DNA of 64,000 nucleotides from Sphingosinicella flava. GTDB lineage: Bacteria > Pseudomonadota > Alphaproteobacteria > Sphingomonadales > Sphingomonadaceae. The stretch is from contig NZ_CP065592.1 in the NCBI RefSeq assembly GCF_016025255.1, positions 1,283,122 through 1,347,121 on the forward strand, given 5' to 3'. How positions within the stretch are numbered: the first letter of the stretch is position 1; each line of letters starts with the position of its first letter. The translations under genes were made by a program, and so were the position numbers. Positions 27,102 to 36,055 of this stretch are shown piece by piece. The notes under the pieces were generated by a model. It was not told the DNA's origin, ran no database searches, and saw only the letters and a program-made list of their open reading frames with translations.

Positions 27102-27272
27102 ATGATCGTCTGCGTTTGTAATGCGATTCGGGAACGGGAAGTACGCGAAGCCACGCGCAGCGGCGCCTCCTGCCCGTCCAGCGCCTATGCCTGCCTGGGC
27201 CGCCGCGCCAAATGCGGCCAGTGCTTCCCGTTCGCGCGCGAGGTGATCGCGTCCGCCCGGGCCGGCGCCTGA
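27102..27272 (+). CDS. bfd: Bacterioferritin-associated ferredoxin
   Basis: A 56-residue [2Fe-2S] protein with the canonical cysteines Cys4, Cys6, Cys38 and Cys41 (CVC ... CGQC). Bfd docks on bacterioferritin and donates electrons to release stored iron. It is short, which is normal for the family. The bacterioferritin gene follows on the same strand about 200 bases later, so the pair forms an iron-storage module. AT-rich sequence before the start (including ATTATCGTTATCTAAATC) could hold an iron-responsive operator, but I cannot assign a specific box. Confidence 0.9.
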   Translation: MIVCVCNAIREREVREATRSGASCPSSAYACLGRRAKCGQCFPFAREVIASARAGA

Positions 27273-27380
27273 CAGGATTCTCCCAAAAACCATTTTCCTA
27301 CTTCCGCCGCATCGGTCATGCTAACAGGGCGTATCCGTTGATGCGGATGCGCTTCGGCGAAAAGCTGAGGAATTGATTTT

Positions 27381-27419
27381 CTTGCCAGAGCATCAATTTC
27401 ATCAACTTTCCCTCGAAGA
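27381..27419 (+). promoter_or_regulatory. Conserved 39-base leader element, copy 1 (upstream of bfr)
   Basis: This 39-base block matches 35864-35902 (opposite strand) at 38 of 39 positions. The flanks diverge sharply on both sides. It contains a near-perfect direct repeat (CATCAATTT, CATCAACTT). It lies 60-98 bases before the bfr start and reads in the same direction as bfr. Translated from its TTG it gives LPEHQFHQLSLEE. The function is unknown. Confidence 0.8.
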
Positions 27420-27516
27420 AAATCGGCTAAGGCTTTCCATCCAGTTAGGGTTGAAAGCGATCGGAGGGAGTGACGGCCATGAAGGGCGACGAACGCGTCA
27501 TCGAGCTTTTGAATGA
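27382..27516 (+). other. Possible small leader ORF before bfr
   Basis: A 44-codon frame from a TTG preceded by GAGGA about 10 bases upstream. It begins LPEHQFHQLSLEENRLRLS and ends 38 bases inside bfr in another frame. The first 13 residues equal those of the possible leader ORF before panB. The two copies differ by one synonymous base (CCA/CCG). Whether it is translated is unknown. Confidence 0.35.
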
Positions 27517-27958
27517 AGCGCTCAAGAATGAGCTGACCGCCGTCAACCAATATTGGCTGCATTACCGCCTGTTCGACCATTGGGGCATCCAGCGCCTCGC
27601 CGAGTTCGAACGGCATGAATCGATCGACGAGATGAAGCATGCCGACCGCCTGTCGGAACGCATCCTGTTCCTCGACGGACTTCCCAATTTCCAGCTCCTC
27701 GGCCGCCTCCGCATCGGTGAGACGGTGGAGGAGGCGCTGAAGGCCGACCTCGACCTTGAAAAGGAGGCGCTTCAGCAGCTTCGCGAGGCCATCGCCCATT
27801 GCGAAAGCGTCCGCGATTATGTGAGCCGCGATCTCTTCGCCGAAATCCTCGCCAATGAGGAAGAGCATGTCGATATCCTCGAAAAGCAGTTCGACATGAT
27901 CGAGCGGATGGGGCTCCAAAATTATATCCAGCTTCAGTCCAAACCGGCTGAGGACTGA
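27479..27958 (+). CDS. bfr: Bacterioferritin
   Basis: A haem-containing ferritin (159 residues) that oxidises and stores iron in a 24-subunit shell. It begins [20 protein letters not shown], and the ferroxidase ligands are in place: [22 protein letters not shown] and EEEHVDILE. The ATG at 27479 has GGAGGGA about 9 bases upstream; a GTG three codons earlier is less likely. Bfd is encoded just upstream. The leader carries the conserved 39-base element described separately. Confidence 0.96.
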
Positions 27959-28028
27959 CCGTCTGGTCAGCCCATGCGGAGAGTGAAGCCGCTCCACGTT
28001 CTTGTTTGAGTTTTTGAGGGGGAAGAGC

Positions 28029-29279
28029 ATGGAAGCGCGGCTGCCACTGGAACGCATCCCGACCCTCGACATCTTGCGTGGCATCGCCGTCATGGGCATT
28101 CTCGCGATGAACATTCCGGCCTTCGCGATGCCGGAGGCGGCTTATACCAGCCCCGCCGCTTATGGCGGCTCCGAAGGCCTCGACCTGTTCGCCTGGATCG
28201 CGAGCTTCATTCTTTTCGACGGCAAGATGCGCGGCTTTTTCGGCTTGCTTTTCGGCGCGAGCATGCTGCTCGTGATCGATCGGGCGGAGGCGCGAGGGGA
28301 AAATGGCGCGGCCGTCCACCTGCGCCGCATGGCCTGGCTCCTCGTCATCGGTCTCGCCCATTTCTATCTCTTTTGGTGGGGCGACATTCTCTCGCTCTAC
28401 GCCCTGGCGGGCACCGCCGCCTTCCTGCTCCACCGCTTGCCGGCCAAGTGGATGATCGCCGCCATTGTCCTGCTGCTTGGCTGGCAAGGCGTGAAGATGG
28501 GCATGACCTCGGCTCGCTTCCTCGCCGCGGAAAGCCGGGCGGAAGCGCCGGGCGCCTCCGCCGACGCCGTCGCCCGCTGGCAGCGCATGGATGGCAGCTT
28601 CCGTCCGCCCGCGGACCGGATCGCGGCCGATCTCGCGCTCCACCGTTCGGGTTACGGCACGCTCGTTCACGACCGCGTGGCGAACCGGACATGGGAGCCC
28701 TTTACCGGCTTCCTCTTCATCGGCGCCGAGACGGTCGCTTACATGCTGATCGGCATGCTGGGCTTGCGCAGCGGATTCCTGATCGGGGCCTGGACGGCGG
28801 AGGCCTATCGCCGCGTCGCTTTTTGGGGCCTGGCGCTAGGCGGGGGCGGCTTCATGGCGCTTGCGGCTCTGGACGTGGCGTCCGGTTTCAACACCGCCAC
28901 GGTCGCCGCGGTGCAATTCAGCGGGACGCAGGTGCCGCGCCTTCTGATGATCTTCGGCTATGCCGCCTTGTTCATCCTCCTCGCCCGCAAAGGCGGATGG
29001 CTGATCGGGCGCATCGCCGCAGCCGGGCGGATGGCGCTCTCCAATTATCTCGGCGCCACCTTGGTTCTTACGCCGATATTCTACGGCTACGGTCTCGGCC
29101 TCTACGGGCATCTCGACCGGGCGGCGCTTTATCCCATCGTGTTCGCGACTTGGATCTTGATGCTGCTTTGGTCGCAGCCATGGCTGGCGCGGCACCGTTA
29201 CGGCCCGTTCGAATGGCTGTGGCGCAGCCTCGCGCGCGGGCGGGCCCAGCCGATGCGGCTCTCCGCGCAAATCGCATGA
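28029..29279 (+). CDS. DUF418 family polytopic membrane protein (copy 1)
   Basis: A membrane protein of 416 residues with about nine to ten helices. It starts with the DUF418/acyltransferase-3-like motif RIPTLDILRGIAVMGILAMN, has a conserved FLLFGASMLL-type segment (GLLFGASMLLVIDRAEARG), and ends with the C-terminal DUF418 region around AAGRMALSNYLGATLV and YGPFEWLWRSLARG. DUF418 proteins are putative envelope proteins of unknown substrate. The ATG at 28029 has GGGGGAAGAG just upstream. A second copy follows 61 bases later. Confidence 0.88.
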   Translation: MEARLPLERIPTLDILRGIAVMGILAMNIPAFAMPEAAYTSPAAYGGSEGLDLFAWIASFILFDGKMRGFFGLLFGASMLLVIDRAEARGENGAAVHLRRMAWLLVIGLAHFYLFWWGDILSLYALAGTAAFLLHRLPAKWMIAAIVLLLGWQGVKMGMTSARFLAAESRAEAPGASADAVARWQRMDGSFRPPADRIAADLALHRSGYGTLVHDRVANRTWEPFTGFLFIGAETVAYMLIGMLGLRSGFLIGAWTAEAYRRVAFWGLALGGGGFMALAALDVASGFNTATVAAVQFSGTQVPRLLMIFGYAALFILLARKGGWLIGRIAAAGRMALSNYLGATLVLTPIFYGYGLGLYGHLDRAALYPIVFATWILMLLWSQPWLARHRYGPFEWLWRSLARGRAQPMRLSAQIA

Positions 29280-29340
29280 TCGGTTATGACCGCGCCGCGA
29301 TGATTGGGTAACCTACATGACGACCAGGGGGGAGGCAGAC

Positions 29341-30591
29341 ATGGCGACGACATCGGAACCGCAGGCTCGCATCGTCACGCTCGACATCGTTCGCGGCATT
29401 GCCGTGATGGGCATATTGGCGATGAACATCGTCGCCTTCGCCATGCCCCAAGCGGCCTACCAGAATCCTAAGGCCTATGGCGGGTCAGAGGGGCTGGACC
29501 TCGCCGTCTGGTGGTTCAACTTCGTGCTCGTCGACGGAAAGATGCGCGGTCTTTTCTCGCTTCTGTTCGGCGCCAGCATGCTGCTCGTCATAGAGGGCGC
29601 CGCCGCGAAGGGCGAAAATCCTGCATCCGTCCACTATCGCCGCATGGGCTGGCTCCTGATCTTTGGTCTCCTCCATTTCTTTTTCGTCTGGTGGGGAGAC
29701 ATCCTCTACCAATATGCCTTGATCGGCATGATCGCTTTCCTGTTCCGGAATAAGCCAATCAAAGCGCTGATCCGGTGGGCCATCGGCTTTCTGCTCGTTC
29801 AGTGGTTGCTCATGGCGCTGATTTCCTTCCAATTTTTCACAGTGGCTGAACAGGCTGCCGCGCCCGGCGTCAGTGCCGATGTCCTCGCCCAGTGGAGCCA
29901 GATGAAGCAGGGTTTCATGCCGTCCGCCGCGGAGCTCGCGAAGGATATTGCCGTCTATGATGGCGGCTATGGCAGCATCGTCGTTCATCGTGCCGGGCAG
30001 GCGGGCTTTATGATCACCGGCCTTATCTTCGTCGGCATGGAGACGCTGGCCTATATGCTGATCGGCATGGCGGCGCTGAAAAGCGGTTTCTTGACCGGCG
30101 CCTGGGACAATCGCCGCTATCTTCGCTGGATGATCGTCGCTTATGCGATCAGCATTCCGCTCTATATGTTGATCGCCGCCTGGCTTGCCGGTTCCGGCTT
30201 CTCCGTCACGACTGTCGTCGCCGCCAACCTGGGCGCGACGGTGCCGATCCGGCCGGTGATGATCGTCGGCCACGCCGCGCTCATCATCTTGCTCACCCGC
30301 AATGGCGGCGCTTTGGTCGAGCGGATCGCGGCGGCGGGCCGGATGGCGTTCACCAACTATCTGGGCACGAGCATCATCGTCTCGACGCTCTTCTACGGTT
30401 ATGGCGGCGGCCTCTACGGGGATCTCAGCCGGGCGGAGAGCTATTTGGTCGTGTTCGCCATGTGGGCGCTGATGCTGCTTTGGTCGAAGCTTTGGCTCGA
30501 CCGCTACCGGTTCGGCCCGTTCGAATGGCTGTGGCGCAGCCTCGCGCGCGGCAAAGTGCAGCCGATGCGGAGGGAGGCGGCGGCGATTTAA
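29341..30591 (+). CDS. DUF418 family polytopic membrane protein (copy 2)
   Basis: 416 residues, the same length and motif order as the preceding gene: RIVTLDIVRGIAVMGILAMN, LLFGASMLLVIEGAAAKGENP, AAGRMAFTNYLGTS and RFGPFEWLWRSLARG. The two are clearly a tandem duplication that has diverged mainly in the loops and middle helices. The ATG at 29341 has GGGGAGG upstream. Its stop overlaps that of the convergent HPt gene. Confidence 0.88.
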   Translation: MATTSEPQARIVTLDIVRGIAVMGILAMNIVAFAMPQAAYQNPKAYGGSEGLDLAVWWFNFVLVDGKMRGLFSLLFGASMLLVIEGAAAKGENPASVHYRRMGWLLIFGLLHFFFVWWGDILYQYALIGMIAFLFRNKPIKALIRWAIGFLLVQWLLMALISFQFFTVAEQAAAPGVSADVLAQWSQMKQGFMPSAAELAKDIAVYDGGYGSIVVHRAGQAGFMITGLIFVGMETLAYMLIGMAALKSGFLTGAWDNRRYLRWMIVAYAISIPLYMLIAAWLAGSGFSVTTVVAANLGATVPIRPVMIVGHAALIILLTRNGGALVERIAAAGRMAFTNYLGTSIIVSTLFYGYGGGLYGDLSRAESYLVVFAMWALMLLWSKLWLDRYRFGPFEWLWRSLARGKVQPMRREAAAI

Positions 30592-31016
30592 ATCCGCCCG
30601 AATTCCTGATTGGTTCCGGCGCGGCCGAAGGCCGGGCGGCGCTGGGCAAGCGGATTCATTTCCGCCGCGAAGAGCGCCATCGTTTCGTCGAACAGGCGGC
30701 GGAGCTGCACGACCGCAGGCAGGATTTCGTCGGGAAACAGCCGATTTTCCACCGCGCGGCGTCCCGCAAACTCGATCTTTTCGGCGAGCGCGCCGATCGG
30801 CTCCGCGCCGAACTGCCGCGCCTCGGTCTTCAGCGTGTGGGCGGGGAGGATAAGCGCTGTCGCGTCCCGGCGGTGCATGCCGTCCTCGATCCGGGCCACG
30901 GCCTTTTCACCATCTTCCTGGAAATAGCCGAGGATTCGCACGAAGCTCGCGCCAAGCTCAGTGCGGGTGCGCGAAAAAAGCGCCCAATCCACAATGGCTT
31001 CGCCGTTATTGTTCAA
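30588..31016 (-). CDS. Histidine phosphotransfer (HPt) domain protein
   Basis: A single-domain HPt protein of 142 residues. The phosphoacceptor is His60 within LPAHTLKTEARQFGAEP, followed by ALAEKIEFAGR, a typical HPt helix pair. HPt proteins pass phosphate between response-regulator domains in multistep relays. No kinase or response regulator gene is adjacent, so its partners are encoded elsewhere. The tail of about 25 residues is not conserved-looking. Confidence 0.82.
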   Translation of the reverse strand: MNNNGEAIVDWALFSRTRTELGASFVRILGYFQEDGEKAVARIEDGMHRRDATALILPAHTLKTEARQFGAEPIGALAEKIEFAGRRAVENRLFPDEILPAVVQLRRLFDETMALFAAEMNPLAQRRPAFGRAGTNQEFGRI

Positions 31017-31070
31017 TGGTGCATCCTCTTTTCAATGCGCCCCGTCTAACCGGCAGCGGTAAATAGGGAG

Positions 31071-31295
31071 TTACACGGACAGGATTTCGACGCGAAATGC
31101 ACCTTCCTCTTCCGTGCTGCAAGTCCAGCCGCGTTCGGCGCAAAGCGCGGCGATCTCCCGCGGCGCGATGGGATCGTCGGCAAGGATCCGGATCGTCCCC
31201 GCCCCGCCCATTTCCCGCACCGCCCGGGCAAGCCGCATGACCGGCCACGGGCACAGCATGCCCCGCGCATCGACGAGTCGCGGCCCGCCCTTCAC
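31071..31295 (-). CDS. TusA/SirA-like sulfurtransferase
   Basis: A protein of 74 residues with the CPxP motif (Cys15-Pro-Trp-Pro18) in VDARGMLCPWPVMRLARAV, the signature of the TusA/YeeD/SirA family of small sulfur carriers. The GTG start overlaps the der stop (GTGA), so it is co-translated with der. Which sulfur pathway it serves cannot be told from context. Confidence 0.85.
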   Translation of the reverse strand: MKGGPRLVDARGMLCPWPVMRLARAVREMGGAGTIRILADDPIAPREIAALCAERGWTCSTEEEGAFRVEILSV

Positions 31296-32659
31296 GACCC
31301 GAACGGATTCTTCGGCGCCCGCGCGTGGAGCCGCACCGGCACCGCGCCAAAGCCCAATTCCTTGCGGATGCCGTTCACGAGATAGCGTTTGTAGCTTTCC
31401 GGAAGCTCATCCACCCGCGTCCCGAACAGCACGAAGCTCGGCGGGCGCGTATTCACCTGGGTGATGTAGCGCAGTTTGATCCTTTTGCCGCCCGGCGCGG
31501 GTGGCGGATTATTCTCCACCGCCCGTTCGAACCAGCGGTTGAGCTCGCCCGTCGACACGCGCCGCGACCAGATGTCGCGCACCTCGAAGGCGGCGGAGAG
31601 CAATTGGTCGATCCCCTTGCCGGTACGCGCCGATACGGCGATCAGCGGCACGCCGCGCACCTGCGACAAGCCTTCTTCCAACGCGGCCCTGATGCCCTGG
31701 AACAGCGAACTCGCATTCTCCGCCACGTCCCATTTGTTGATGGCGATGACGAGCGCGCGGCCCTCCTGAAGCGCATTGTCCGCGATCCGCAGATCCTGCG
31801 CCTCCAGTCCCAGTGTCGCGTCGAGCAGCAAAACCACGACTTCCGCGAAATCCACCGCGCGCCGCGCGTCGGCGACGGACAGTTTTTCCAGCTTGTCCTG
31901 CACCCGTGCCTTCTTGCGCATGCCTGCCGTGTCGATCAGCCGTACCGGACGGATATTGCCCCCCGCGTCCTTCCATTCCCAATCGATGGCGATGGAATCG
32001 CGGGTAATGCCCGCTTCCGGCCCGGTGATGAGGCGTTCCTGTTCCAGGATGCGGTTGATGAGGGTCGACTTGCCCGCATTGGGGCGGCCGACGATGGCGA
32101 GCTTCAGCGGGCGGTTCGCCTCGTCGGCCTCTTCCTCCTCGGCGAAGGGATCCTCCTCGCGCTCGATGAAGGGGGCGAGCTGCTCGTAAAGATCGGCGAC
32201 ACCCTCGCCATGTTCCGCGCTGATCGCGATCGGTTCGCCAAGGCCAAGGGCATAGGCCTCCAACAATCCCCCCTCGCCCGCGCGTCCTTCCGCCTTGTTG
32301 GCGGCAAGCACGACCGGCGTTTTTTCGCTGCGGAGCCAGCGGGCGATTTCCTCGTCCAAAGGCGTGATGCCGGCACGCGCATCGACGATGAAAAGCGCGG
32401 CATCCGCCTCCCGCACCGCTGCCGTGGTCTGCGCGCGCATGCGGCCGGGCAGGGTTTCGGGATCCTCATCCTCGAAGCCCGCCGTATCGATGATCCGGAA
32501 TTCAGTGCCGAGCAGAACGGCATCGCCCTCCCGCCGGTCGCGCGTCACGCCGGGCCGGTCGTCGACGAGCGCCAGCTTCTTGCCCACCAGGCGGTTGAAC
32601 AAGGTGGACTTTCCGACATTCGGACGTCCGACGATCGCGACGGTGGGCAATTTGGCCAT
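31292..32659 (-). CDS. der: Ribosome-assembly GTPase Der (EngA)
   Basis: An essential double-GTPase of 455 residues that acts in 50S subunit maturation. Two GTP domains are visible: GRPNVGKST with DTAG in the first, GRPNAGKST with DTAGMRKK and NKWD in the second. In the first domain the NKxD-type motif reads ANKAEG, where Asp is replaced by Glu, as is common in Der. A KH-like C-terminal domain follows (from about ELNRWFERAVENN). It is flanked by bamB upstream and tusA-like downstream. Confidence 0.97.
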   Translation of the reverse strand: MAKLPTVAIVGRPNVGKSTLFNRLVGKKLALVDDRPGVTRDRREGDAVLLGTEFRIIDTAGFEDEDPETLPGRMRAQTTAAVREADAALFIVDARAGITPLDEEIARWLRSEKTPVVLAANKAEGRAGEGGLLEAYALGLGEPIAISAEHGEGVADLYEQLAPFIEREEDPFAEEEEADEANRPLKLAIVGRPNAGKSTLINRILEQERLITGPEAGITRDSIAIDWEWKDAGGNIRPVRLIDTAGMRKKARVQDKLEKLSVADARRAVDFAEVVVLLLDATLGLEAQDLRIADNALQEGRALVIAINKWDVAENASSLFQGIRAALEEGLSQVRGVPLIAVSARTGKGIDQLLSAAFEVRDIWSRRVSTGELNRWFERAVENNPPPAPGGKRIKLRYITQVNTRPPSFVLFGTRVDELPESYKRYLVNGIRKELGFGAVPVRLHARAPKNPFGS

Positions 32660-32713
32660 GAAAGGCCCCTGCCCGAGGCAGCCGGGACATTCAAGCCCCG
32701 GCTCTTCAGTGGC

Positions 32714-34063
32714 TTACCGCCAGGCGGCGAGCGTACCGTCGTCGTGAAGGACGTAGAGCGCGCCGTTCGCGACGACCAGCGGCAGCGACACCGGCTTCTT
32801 GGTGTTCACCGTCGTCTGGATGGCGCCGTCCGCCGGATTGACATTGGTGATCTGCCCCTCGGAACTGGCGAGGATCAGCCGATCCCCCGCAAGCACGGGG
32901 CCGACCCAGCTGATCGGGCCCTTCTTATCCTCTTCGTCCCGGTAACGCGGAAGCTGCGTCATCCAGCGGACCTTGCCAGTGTCACGCGCGACGGCCAGAA
33001 GCTCGGCATCGTCGGTGACGACGTAAATCCAGTCGCCCGCCACCCACGGCGTCGAGATGCCCGCGACGTTGATTTCCCAAAGCCGCTGGCCGGTGGCGAG
33101 GTCGATCGCAACCATGCGTCCGCCCTGGCCGATGGCGTAGACGCGGCCATTGTCGATCACCGGATCGGCATCGACGTCGGACAAATTGGTGACGGCGGTC
33201 GAAATGGACGTGCGGGTCAGCGCATCGCCCCACACCGGCTGGCCGTTTTCATAGCGGAAGGCCGTAAGCTCGCCGGAGGAGAAACCCGCGACCACGGTGC
33301 CCTGCGCGACGGCAGGAGCGGCAACGCCGAACACGCCCGCAAGCTCGATCGATCCCGCGCCTTGCCAGCGGAGCGAACCGTCCGCGACATTCAGCGCGTA
33401 AAGCTGGTTGTCCTGGCTCAGCACATAGGCGCTGTCATAGGCGATGGTCGGGGCGCCGCGCAGCGGCCCGCCGGGGCGCGTCTTCCAGATCTGCTTGCCG
33501 GTCGCGGCATCGAACGCCGCGACATCGCCAATGCCGTTGGTCGCATAGACTCGGCCATTGTCGAAGCTGACGCCGCCGCCGAACACGGCGCCGCTATTGC
33601 CGGTATTTTCGCCGGTCCAAAAACTACGGCGTCCGGTCACGTCGCCGACGCTCGCCCGCCAGCGTTCGCCGCCGTTGGCGGCGTCGAGCGCGCGGACCGT
33701 CGCATTGGTGTCGATGACATAGATGGTCCCGTTGGCAACCACCGGCGCCGCGGCGAGCCGGGTCCGCGATGTGCTGCCCGCGATTTCAACCGCCCAAGCC
33801 CGGCCGATCGCGGCGGGCAAGGCGAGGTGGCCGATCGACTTGGCCGCGCTGCCGCCGGGCTGCGCCCAATCGGCATTGCTGACCGCGCCCGGGATCGTCA
33901 CCGGCACGGCCGCGAGCTCCGGATCGACCTGAATGCCAGTTTCGGACGACAGGACGGGAATGCGTTGTCCCACAGTCGGCGTCACCGGATCCTTCTTGCC
34001 GCCGACGATGCCGCAGCCGCCCAGAATGCCGGCGGCGGCCAGGATTGTTACCAGTCGCTTCAT
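32714..34063 (-). CDS. bamB: Outer-membrane assembly lipoprotein BamB-like
   Basis: A lipoprotein of 449 residues (lipobox LGGC, Cys17) made of repeated PQQ-like beta-propeller blades, for example GTIYVIDTNATVRALDAANGGERWR and GRMVAIDLATGQRLWEI. BamB helps BamA insert beta-barrel proteins into the outer membrane. The gene sits between a YfgM-like protein and der, the same order known for bamB in many proteobacteria, which supports the assignment. Its ATG overlaps the upstream stop. Confidence 0.88.
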   Translation of the reverse strand: MKRLVTILAAAGILGGCGIVGGKKDPVTPTVGQRIPVLSSETGIQVDPELAAVPVTIPGAVSNADWAQPGGSAAKSIGHLALPAAIGRAWAVEIAGSTSRTRLAAAPVVANGTIYVIDTNATVRALDAANGGERWRASVGDVTGRRSFWTGENTGNSGAVFGGGVSFDNGRVYATNGIGDVAAFDAATGKQIWKTRPGGPLRGAPTIAYDSAYVLSQDNQLYALNVADGSLRWQGAGSIELAGVFGVAAPAVAQGTVVAGFSSGELTAFRYENGQPVWGDALTRTSISTAVTNLSDVDADPVIDNGRVYAIGQGGRMVAIDLATGQRLWEINVAGISTPWVAGDWIYVVTDDAELLAVARDTGKVRWMTQLPRYRDEEDKKGPISWVGPVLAGDRLILASSEGQITNVNPADGAIQTTVNTKKPVSLPLVVANGALYVLHDDGTLAAWR

Positions 34064-34782
34064 TGTTTCGCTTTCTCCGTCGCGGCGCCGCCGCTTTGGT
34101 CACTGTCCGGAACCGCGTCGATGCCGAGGGACGACGCCATCTGGACGGCGCGCGACCGGATCGTGTCGGGGAGTTGATCGTCCTTGGCCATGGCGGCGAA
34201 GATCGGGCCGGCAAGCTCCGGCTTGCCCGCCTTCATATGCGCGATCGCGACCATTTCCCCCGCGCTGCCGAACCAGGGATTGCCGGCGACGGCGAGGCCC
34301 TTCAACCGCTCGATCACTTGAGCCGGGGGCAATTTATCGAATTCCGCCGCCGTCTGGCGAAGGAGCGCGAGCTCGCGATAGGGCGCGGCGAAATCGGCAT
34401 TGTCGGCGACGGCCTTGAACTGAGCGGCGGCCTCTGCATCCTTGCCTTCGCTCAGCGCGATATCGGCCTTGGTGAGCAAGGCGGCGGCGCGATACCCGTC
34501 CGAACCCTCCTTGGCGAGTTGATCGAGGCGCGGACCCGCTTCCTTCAGCTTGTTCGCCTGAAGATCGGAAAAAGCCTGGGTCAGCATTTCGGCATGGGCA
34601 GCCTCTTCCTGCTCCTGCCGATGCTGCCAATAAAGATAGCCGCCGATCGCGGCGAGCAGCAGGGCAAAGCCCGCGATCAAGGCCTTGCCGTAACGCTGCC
34701 AGAATGTGGTCAGCTGGGCGCGGCGAAGCTCGTCGTCCACCTCGCGGTAGAAAGCTTCATTGTCAGCGGGCTTGATCGCCAA
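34060..34782 (-). CDS. YfgM-like TPR membrane protein
   Basis: A protein of 240 residues with one membrane segment (about 34-52, ALIAGFALLLAAIGGYLYW) after a short cytoplasmic N-terminus, followed by TPR-like helices to the C-terminus. This matches the YfgM/DUF2133-type family, periplasmic ancillary proteins near the Sec translocon. The frame starts at a TTG with GGAG 7 bases upstream; no in-frame ATG gives the full N-terminus. Its stop overlaps the bamB start (ATGA). Confidence 0.82.
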   Translation of the reverse strand: MAIKPADNEAFYREVDDELRRAQLTTFWQRYGKALIAGFALLLAAIGGYLYWQHRQEQEEAAHAEMLTQAFSDLQANKLKEAGPRLDQLAKEGSDGYRAAALLTKADIALSEGKDAEAAAQFKAVADNADFAAPYRELALLRQTAAEFDKLPPAQVIERLKGLAVAGNPWFGSAGEMVAIAHMKAGKPELAGPIFAAMAKDDQLPDTIRSRAVQMASSLGIDAVPDSDQSGGAATEKAKQ

Positions 34783-34915
34783 GAATCGTCTCCATGGATG
34801 TCACGCGGTCTGCCCGGGCCAACCTATCTCCCCCCTGAACGAAGGGCGAAGGCGCCGGGTGTTTCCGCCTCTGCCCTGCACCTCTATCCGCGCCGAGGCG
34901 CAAACGGAAGAGCAT

Positions 34916-35773
34916 TCACTTGCGCCGGTAGATCTGCGCCTCGGTGGGAAAGGTTCGCGCCCTGACATCGGCCGCGTAGGCTTCCGCCGCCGAAGTAATG
35001 CGACCCGCCAGATCGTCGAACTTCTTCACGAAACGCGGCGTCCGCTCGAACATGCCGAGCATGTCGTCGATCACGAGCACCTGGCCATCGCACTGCGCCG
35101 ACGCGCCGATACCGATCGTGGGGCAGGCAACAGATTTAGTCGCTTCGACCGCGATTTCCTCCATCACGCCTTCCAGCACGACGGCGAAAGCGCCGGCATC
35201 GGCGACGGCGCGGGCGTCGGCGAGGATCTTCGCCGCCTCCGCTTCGCTCTTGCCGCGCGCGGCATAGCCGCCCAATGCGTTCACCGCCTGCGGGGTGAGA
35301 CCGACATGGGCCATCACCGGAATGCCGCGCGCGGTGAGGAAAGCGATCGTCTCCGCCATCGCCTCGCCGCCTTCCAGTTTCACCGCCGCCGCACCGGTTT
35401 CCTTCAGGATGCGGGCGGCGCTTTCGAAGGCTTGTGCCGGGCTTGCTTCATAGGAACCGAACGGCATGTCGATCACCACGACGCTGTGCCACGACCCCCG
35501 CACCACGGCGGCGCCATGCGCGCACATCATGTCGAGCGTCACCGGCACCGTTGAGGGCAGGCCGTAAATCACCTGGGCCAGACTGTCGCCGACCAGCAAT
35601 ATGTCGCAATGCGGGTCGAGCAATTGCGCCATGCGCGCCGTATAGGCTGTGAGCATGACGATCGGCTCGCCGCCCTTCATGCCCTGTATCTTGGGAACGG
35701 TCAGCCGCTTCATTGGCGCTGGCGTCGGATTGGCGCGGCTGGTGGAGGTGTCGAGCGTGTAGGTCGTGGACAT
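34916..35773 (-). CDS. panB: 3-methyl-2-oxobutanoate hydroxymethyltransferase
   Basis: The first enzyme of pantothenate synthesis (285 residues), forming ketopantoate from ketoisovalerate and methylene-THF in the cytosol. Family motifs include [14 protein letters not shown], the metal site [33 protein letters not shown] and [22 protein letters not shown]. It has an N-terminal extension of about 20 residues. The leader carries a 39-base element shared with bfr, and a possible leader ORF ends inside the gene. Confidence 0.97.
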
Positions 35774-35901
35774 GGATTACCTTCTATCGCCGCGCGGGCC
35801 GTTGCGGAAGGCCGGCCGCACGGCCGACGGCGTGCCCAGACGAACCGCCGCAGATGCATCCCCTCTTCGAGGGAAAGTTGATGAAATTGATGCTCCGGCA
35901 A
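35710..35901 (-). other. Possible small leader ORF before panB
   Basis: A 63-codon frame from a TTG that begins LPEHQFHQLSLEEGMHLRRF and ends 64 bases inside panB in another frame. After residue 13 it shares nothing with the possible leader ORF of bfr. The later part is Arg/Pro-rich and may not be real coding sequence. Confidence 0.35.
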
Positions 35902-35902
35902 G
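35864..35902 (-). promoter_or_regulatory. Conserved 39-base leader element, copy 2 (upstream of panB)
   Basis: Identical to 27381-27419 except for one base, with unrelated flanks. It lies 91-129 bases before the panB start codon and points the same way as panB, just as copy 1 does for bfr. No comparable sequence was noticed elsewhere in the window. Confidence 0.8.
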
Positions 35903-36055
35903 TTTTTCAGGCTGCCCTTCCCGACCGGCGGGGCTTGATGGCCGAAATGGCAAGGAGGGCGCGGGATTCATCATCCCGCCTTCATGGCAGATTCTGGCAA
36001 TGTAGGAAAATCCGTTCCCCCAATATGGATAAGCGACCCGGCCTCACTGCGGGCA

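Follow-up and report, generated by a model that had tools for sequence, protein, structure and literature searches.

What is the 39-base element that stands before both bfr and panB in a 64,000-nucleotide stretch of the Sphingosinicella flava genome (hereafter, the window)? A sequence-only reading had reported the two copies, and their identity at 38 of 39 bases, the divergence of the flanks on both sides and the distances to the ATG of bfr at 27479 (60 to 98 bases) and to that of panB at 35773 (91 to 129 bases) were all confirmed here, as was a 9-base tandem repeat within each copy (CATCAATTT CATCAACTT; coordinates in Table 1). When the window was searched with a 38-base pattern at up to 3 mismatches, these two sites were the only matches, and 100 shuffles gave 0. 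The wider search which that reading proposed did find further copies, with 16 profile matches in the 2.42-Mb genome itself and 11 in a sister species (G019; genomes and loci carry our own G and L labels). The 14 additional matches in the genome had been overlooked, as had a second box, box A, upstream of both genes. The 39-mer, here called box B, makes up one half of a two-box unit of approximately 150 bases, and approximately 20 such units are scattered in the genome.

The two boxes are linked to each other, occur in many copies and are conserved between the two species, and the word repeated in box B depends on the lineage. This layout, together with the unconserved interior and the lineage-dependent words, fits a promoter with a downstream operator and a changing reader. 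We therefore favor, tentatively, the explanation that the unit comprises a promoter and a downstream tandem operator, and that it may be read by a protein of lineage-shifting specificity that takes 9 base pairs (bp) per protomer.

Two linked boxes in two genomes

Of the 27 copies that the box B profile detected, 22 had gone into building it, as had 12 of 16 for the profile of a second subfamily, described below. Because only the best first-look candidates of each genome were scored (at most 150, or 15 in the order-wide search), weak copies can escape both profiles. The match at L076 was weak and probably arose by chance. With a 19-base core and up to 3 mismatches, 13 matches were found in the genome, one of which (L011) reads as chance coding sequence, compared to 0 for the reversed control, and with up to 2 mismatches 11 were found in the sister species. 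Among 59 other relatives, 5 genomes outside the genus had 1 or 2 core matches, which look like chance. Elsewhere in the genus (24 genomes), only G001, G011, and G018 gave profile matches, all of them weak, and the order-wide search of 396 genomes added 13 further genomes at E ≤ 0.001, several of whose matches fall in coding sequence and were set aside.

Gene starts were taken from a custom gene caller, which makes shadow errors. On these calls, 19 of the 27 copies in the two species were followed on the same strand by a gene starting 12 to 123 bp away. The genes behind box B in both species were panB, typA, bfr, rpe, a paaA-like gene, and a holin gene, and in the S. flava genome they also included sufD, a maoC-like gene, yggT, a metallo-beta-lactamase-fold gene, an acyl-carrier gene, and a short gene before rimO; except for bfr, panB, and the holin gene, these are the names that we take the protein starts to indicate. 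One copy of the sister species (L063) likewise precedes a called gene. Elsewhere, box B was 235 to 262 bp before ppdK (L060 and L067) or inside an open reading frame (ORF) (L066 and L053), and four copies (L055, L057, L074, and L076) did not fit the gene-start pattern. Since the element is shared, exceeds chance, and mostly stands close before same-strand called genes, an operator, one of the roles first suggested for it, remains a candidate. Control shared by bfr and panB is too narrow a view, as approximately 15 loci of unrelated function bear the element.

Box A lies upstream of box B on the same strand. Its main form is TTTTCCTAC[A/T], the pattern used to locate it was TTTCCTAC[A/T] or TGTCCTACA, and its general form is [C/T]T[T/G]TCCTAC[A/T] followed by a -10-like stretch. 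Within the window this pattern occurs twice, before bfr and panB only. The distance from box A to the tandem core was 84 to 127 bp in 11 of the 16 copies of the genome and 85 to 119 bp in 6 of the 11 sister copies; it was 164 bp at L057, and in five copies with an intervening gene start box A was 314 to 654 bp upstream. The exact word TTTCCTACA was counted 28 times versus 7 for the reversed word in the genome and 26 versus 17 times in the sister species.

Eight ortholog pairs were aligned between the two species, and identities were computed over the five with box A in range. Box B was 81% identical, a figure biased upward because the pairs were chosen for having it, and the segment from box A to A+30 was 70% identical, compared to 49% for the interior spacer, 45% for the stretch from box B to the gene, 41% for the sequence above box A, and 90% for coding sequence. 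With an interior conserved this little, the unit is not the single contiguous conserved block of a mobile repeat. In the panB unit, the segment from A to A+30 was identical at 29 of 32 positions and box B at 43 of 45, and the spacer from box B to the gene was 35% identical. By eye, ortholog-specific variants were retained between the species, which argues against homogenizing conversion.

Two candidate features of the unit were rejected. In an inverted-arm test of 26 copies, the left-arm stems summed to 140 compared to a shuffle mean of 50, above all 200 mononucleotide shuffles, but long arms were confined to the terminase-small-subunit-GNAT ORF of the sister species, L063, ppdK, and panB, so the arm was not made a defining feature. 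A small ORF at typA, running from just after box A through box B, is open in both species and was not taken as coding because approximately 20 of its 56 residues differ by reading.

Reading of other box A sites revealed a second repeat subfamily, CGGAAACTGACAAAACTGACGG...GTGCGAACG...GTCAGCTTTC, which is partly palindromic: its left side is a tandem 9-mer and its right side a single inverted arm. With its profile, 8 copies were detected in the S. flava genome and 8 in the sister species, and the remaining 24 genomes of the genus gave no match at E ≤ 0.01. Box A precedes 14 of these 16 copies, in two cases at 444 bp, behind a terminase-like gene. The genes behind the copies include what we presume to be ilvE, fabF, gyrB, and a glycosyltransferase gene. 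RNAalifold applied to 12 sequences gave a 6-pair stem in which 2 pairs had changes on both sides. TetR-operator-like palindromes were observed between box B and the gene at two loci in both species (L163, L176, L155, and L178), TTTGACCGATCGGTCGG before the paaA-like gene and TTGACCGACCGATTGGTCAG before an ilvE-like gene.

Box A also keeps phage- and gene transfer agent (GTA)-like company. It lies 27 to 69 bp before terminase-small-subunit-like genes and close before a DUF6456 (PF20057) gene, DUF6456 being what we take to be the GafZ domain, before a LexA gene, and before a GH108 endolysin gene with a GTA_holin_3TM (PF11351) holin gene behind it. Box B lies between endolysin and holin, and none was seen downstream of the DUF6456 and lexA sites. 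Matches of the terminase-like proteins to PHROG 4044 were uneven (L187, 2e-25; L053, 3e-11; L165, 4e-5; L188, 5e-5; L183, only 0.1; L197, none), so the family rests partly on an RHDGWTPERQ-like motif. Some of these genes carry their genome's own repeat at the 3' end, seen by profile in L183 and L192, where subfamily 2 spans the stop codon, and by eye in L219, L272, and L280. Of 18 such ORFs listed, 13 had their stop within the stretch, and L187, L240, L250, and L256 had no convincing repeat. The dN/dS ratios of two terminase-like genes were 0.18 and 0.33; both are therefore kept by purifying selection. L053 and L066 each contain an ORF that joins a terminase-small-subunit-like domain to a GNAT acetyltransferase; its central part bears GTCATTCCCGCGCAGGCGGGAATCC-type repeats in L066. 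In L180, L179, L233, and L251, the DUF6456 gene preceded by box A has a divergently oriented regulator gene as its neighbor (with HTH_3 in L180), an arrangement that recalls GTA control genes; DUF6456 was Pfam-tested in L180, and the other three are alike by eye.

Repeat words in other genomes

As a hold-out, TTTTCCTACA was searched in the 26 genomes of the genus, which gave 80 sites in the 24 others, and 68 of these were examined (40 stretches from eight genomes plus the loci returned by search). The caller placed 32 of them without a close gene start, a group that wrongly includes some terminase-like genes, 18 with one, and 18 in coding sequence. A repeat was scored when at least 9 of 11 positions matched at period 9 between A+60 and A+180. 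Such repeats followed 8 of the 32 sites without a nearby start, although two of the eight (L219 and L284) are doubtful and look like GC-rich coincidence, compared to 2 of 18 sites with a start and 0 of 18 coding sites. Shuffles of the 32-site group had a mean of 0.67 and a maximum of 3, and among periods 5 to 14 only period 9 rose above its shuffles. Hold-out repeats lay 105 to 160 bp after box A overall, and the six clear ones (L217, L224, L232, L252, L264, and L277) at A+108 to A+141. The word differed by genome: it was GAACATTGG in G006 and G008, TGACATTCG in G016, TGAACTTCA in G011, and GGAAACTTC in G018. G025 had TGACATTCG at A+165, beyond the tested range. At rpe, no unit was seen in the 190 bp upstream of the gene in other members of the genus.

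Two species of another genus, G031 and G462, were examined in the same way, with approximately 21 of 26 and 20 of 20 sites fetched and 19 tested in each. The period-9 repeat was present in 14 of 19 sites of G031 and in 11 of 19 of G462, compared to shuffle maxima of 1 and 2, and again at period 9 only. All positives but L358 carried the word TGTGTCAGGTGTGTCAGG, at A+105 to A+142. ATGs at about A+36 or A+37 in these units had no consistent product. The same units (e.g., L349 and L377) have a third conserved block, GCTCTTTCACA, about 40 to 48 bp after box A, and GCTCTTTCTC or similar occupies this place in subfamily 2 (L159, L181, and L184).

Farther out, CTGTCCTACA reached at least 16 copies and at least twice its reversed count in 18 of 119 genomes of the family (82 versus 3 in G157 and 72 versus 8 in G447). 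Twenty-five loci with TCAACTTC-type repeats from seven further genomes were examined for box A, as raw counts without a shuffle control, and a box A-like decamer, mostly CTGTCCTACA, was present 94 to 153 bp upstream in 7 of the 10 loci of G447, G433, G355, and G155. In G269, 14 copies of TCAACTTCNTCAACTTC were seen (L132 to L154), with no recognizable box A in the 8 loci examined; some of them are inside coding ends, presumably of a radA-like gene and of a sucB-like linker.

The sufD locus could be compared directly. A SufD match was found in 25 genomes of the genus, and in 23 the start was readable. Box A and box B both precede the gene in G000, G011, G018, and G008, 114 to 118 bp apart. In G006 and G019, approximately 40 bp separate box A from the ATG, and a B-type repeat comes 145 to 150 bp after box A, within the reading frame. 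Native SufD sequence thus sits between the boxes in these two genomes, and the boxes are therefore not simply the ends of a single inserted block. Presence varied at this sufC-sufD position, with both boxes in 6 of the 23 genomes, by eye a B-like repeat only in 2 (G010 and G007), and no box A in 15, one of which (G004) offered only 95 bp upstream. By eye, the genomes resemble one another in the box A flanks at sufD and differ in the repeat word; the G018 word with its flank agrees with the other unit of that genome at 30 of 31 bases.

A proposed promoter-operator unit, and rival explanations

Under the promoter-operator explanation, box A would be a promoter of a special kind, its -35 being atypical. 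Box B lies approximately 85 to 150 bp downstream of it and repeats a 9-bp word directly, sometimes with an inverted half-site in addition; it would be an operator on which a DNA-binding protein sits head to tail, 9 bp per protomer, as BldC does. Sitting in the early transcribed region of box A, this protein could block or gate transcription into the downstream genes. The approximately 20 scattered modules, many of them before housekeeping genes including bfr and panB, share their box A with phage-like genes. The specificity of the reader would shift between lineages, with reader and sites co-evolving, and we propose that the 9-mers of a genome change together because of this shift. If so, the co-evolution of a regulator with its sites would be recorded in a constant layout whose word changes between lineages and recurs across the loci of one genome. 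Housekeeping genes, among them bfr, panB, and typA, would be linked to a promoter class of phage- or GTA-like type, and each genome would offer sites that can be counted and tested.

Several observations weigh against this explanation, besides the upward bias of the box B identity and the two doubtful hold-out sites. The ppdK copies of both species have only a coding look-alike of box A, 296 bp away inside glyS; by eye, these glyS matches were taken as SYT codons and rejected as true box A. No box A was present at L076 or, in the sister species, at L055 and at the subfamily 2 copies L211 and L214, and at bfr and rpe the A segment is only 50% identical. The subfamily 2 tandem is on the other strand, with several copies facing convergent genes, and by eye several housekeeping genes seem to have a promoter of their own after box B. 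At sufD, the in-frame repeats are 30 bp farther from box A than the others, and the G008 repeat differs from that of its other unit. Most of the 119 family genomes carry CTGTCCTACA at control level. Of 22 loci with a single CTGTCCTACA, 2 passed the repeat test (L317 of the genome itself and L327 of G462), including 0 of the 18 from genomes not already counted, and in G269, G319, and G292, which have tandem repeats, a recognizable box A was found in 0 of 15 loci.

Known systems resemble parts of the unit. Dispersed intergenic repeats of the repetitive extragenic palindromic (REP) or miniature inverted-repeat transposable element (MITE) type are short, occur in tens of copies, are mostly intergenic and lineage-specific, and are partly palindromic. 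The unit is like them in all these traits and in its presence or absence at sufC-sufD, but it has two separate conserved boxes with an interior that is unconserved or even native coding sequence. Phage pac sites lie in or beside terS, as in P22 and SPP1, and here too some terminase-small-subunit-like genes have a repeat at their 3' end; unlike pac sites, it also occurs at approximately 20 chromosomal loci without the gene. In operators of the BldC type, a MerR-like winged helix-turn-helix protein of Streptomyces, each protomer occupies one 9-bp direct repeat and repeat number varies (PMC5859096). Period 9 alone was enriched downstream of box A; in contrast to BldC operators, the repeat word differs between lineages and the array is downstream of a promoter-like box. 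TTG is over-represented in the -35 of most species covered in an alphaproteobacterial promoter survey (PMC8407463), and box A lacks it. Atypical -35 elements, few scattered promoters, and DUF6456 and GTA-type lysis genes are shared with the GafY/GafZ promoters of Caulobacter, and box A does precede DUF6456 and a GH108 endolysin followed by GTA_holin_3TM. However, the available part of that account describes no tandem 9-mer array (PMC11150451), and most units here precede genes without a known GTA role. These likenesses do not appear to establish membership in either the BldC or the GafY/GafZ type. A literature search on sphingomonad short interspersed repeats and on the box sequences, in which GTA and Novosphingobium promoters and sphingomonad transformation were covered superficially, found no account of the element; the papers listed for the box sequences dealt with other organisms.

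The main rival, which we regard as unlikely, is that the units are decayed mobile cassettes with a full form of box A, terminase-small-subunit-like gene, and box B, the short units having lost the gene and been passively inherited. The full layout is present in the S. flava and sister genomes (subfamily 2, L183 and L192) and, by reading, in G016 (L219, with the same word as the short unit L254), G010 (L280), and G006 (L272), and apparently the same downstream gene follows boxes without a terminase-like gene in G011 (L264) and with one in the sister species (L209). The variable presence at sufC-sufD and the copies in reading frames (L066 and L053) also suit mobility. These points are opposed by the sufD locus of G006 and G019, where native SufD sequence separates the boxes, by the conservation of the boxes and not the interior, and by the purifying selection on the terminase-like genes; the gene-end repeats were seen by profile or eye without a shuffle control, and the four terminase-like ORFs named above lack a convincing one. 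The sites may nonetheless have arisen by cassette decay, even though some could be functional today. A bolder version of the promoter-operator explanation, which we consider a long shot, would be a regulon descended from a phage or GTA and spread throughout the family Sphingomonadaceae, in which a terminase-small-subunit-like or BldC-like protein reads the 9-bp-period array carried by some such genes at their own end, the operator is rewritten in each lineage, and the approximately 20 arrays with their special promoter control core genes or mark GTA packaging sites.

Two other rivals were considered. Many loci could each produce a short non-coding RNA, with box A as its promoter and box B as its 3' part, as suggested by the independence of a unit with its own promoter-like box, by units before convergent genes, and by the double changes kept at 2 pairs of the subfamily 2 stem. 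We judge this improbable: the Rfam search of 8 loci at E ≤ 1 gave no family, only one tRNA and three sub-threshold matches; the RNA fold once considered for the 39-mer form came to 0 pairs; the interior is unconserved; and no obvious terminator follows box B by eye. Quite improbable, too, is that box B is an attenuator of a GTA regulon, ending transcripts from box A except when a GafZ-type antiterminator (DUF6456) allows them to continue into the holin, bfr, panB, and other genes. In Caulobacter, GTA-related promoters have degenerate -35 elements at which GafY acts, and GafZ serves as an antiterminator (PMC11150451), and the positions of box A before DUF6456 and the endolysin and of box B before the holin agree with this, but box B is unlike an intrinsic terminator and was not found behind the DUF6456 and lexA sites. 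The leader mini-peptide first proposed is refuted in substance, and we give it next to no weight. Read from a TTG, both copies do encode LPEHQFHQLSLEE with a single synonymous difference, in frames that end within the downstream gene (44 codons for bfr and 63 for panB), and the ORF copy in L066 and L053 uses the same frame; across the family, however, the TTG is present in 9 of 27 copies, the residues drift, and two copies reach a stop within 12 codons.

Features of the window

Table 1. Elements of the bfr and panB units and their downstream genes, in window coordinates
Feature	Position	Strand	Remarks
Box A of bfr unit (TTTTCCTACT)	27293..27302	+	Starts 98 bp before tandem core; 102 bp in sister species
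Possible -10 region CATGCTAAC after bfr box A	27317..27325	+	Sequence reading; similar CCATGnTA in other units; putative promoter role
Box B (39-mer) of bfr unit	27381..27419	+	Pattern search and profile
Tandem 9-mer CATCAATTT CATCAACTT, bfr unit	27391..27408	+	
bfr, bacterioferritin, downstream gene	27479..27958	+	TIGR00754, 225.5 bits; NCBIfam cut-off 125.55
Box A of panB unit (TTTTCCTACA)	36001..36010	-	Starts 118 bp before core in both species
Possible -10 region CATGAAGG after panB box A	35979..35986	-	Sequence reading; putative promoter role
Box B (39-mer) of panB unit	35864..35902	-	Pattern search and profile
Tandem 9-mer CATCAATTT CATCAACTT, panB unit	35875..35892	-	
panB, 3-methyl-2-oxobutanoate hydroxymethyltransferase, downstream gene	34916..35773	-	TIGR00222, 305.6 bits; cut-off 207.55

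Just before the bfr unit, at about 27200 to 27272, one frame reads ...CAYACLGRRAKCGQCFPFAREVIASARAGA, which we take to resemble a Bfd-type ferredoxin, and the bfr unit may thus separate bfd from bfr. After bfr, two adjacent similar genes (28029 to 29279 and 29341 to 30591), whose proteins start with MEARLPLERIPTLDILRGIAVMGILAMNIP and MATTSEPQARIVTLDIVRGIAVMGILAMNI, look like a tandem duplication, and the sister species also has such a gene after bfr.

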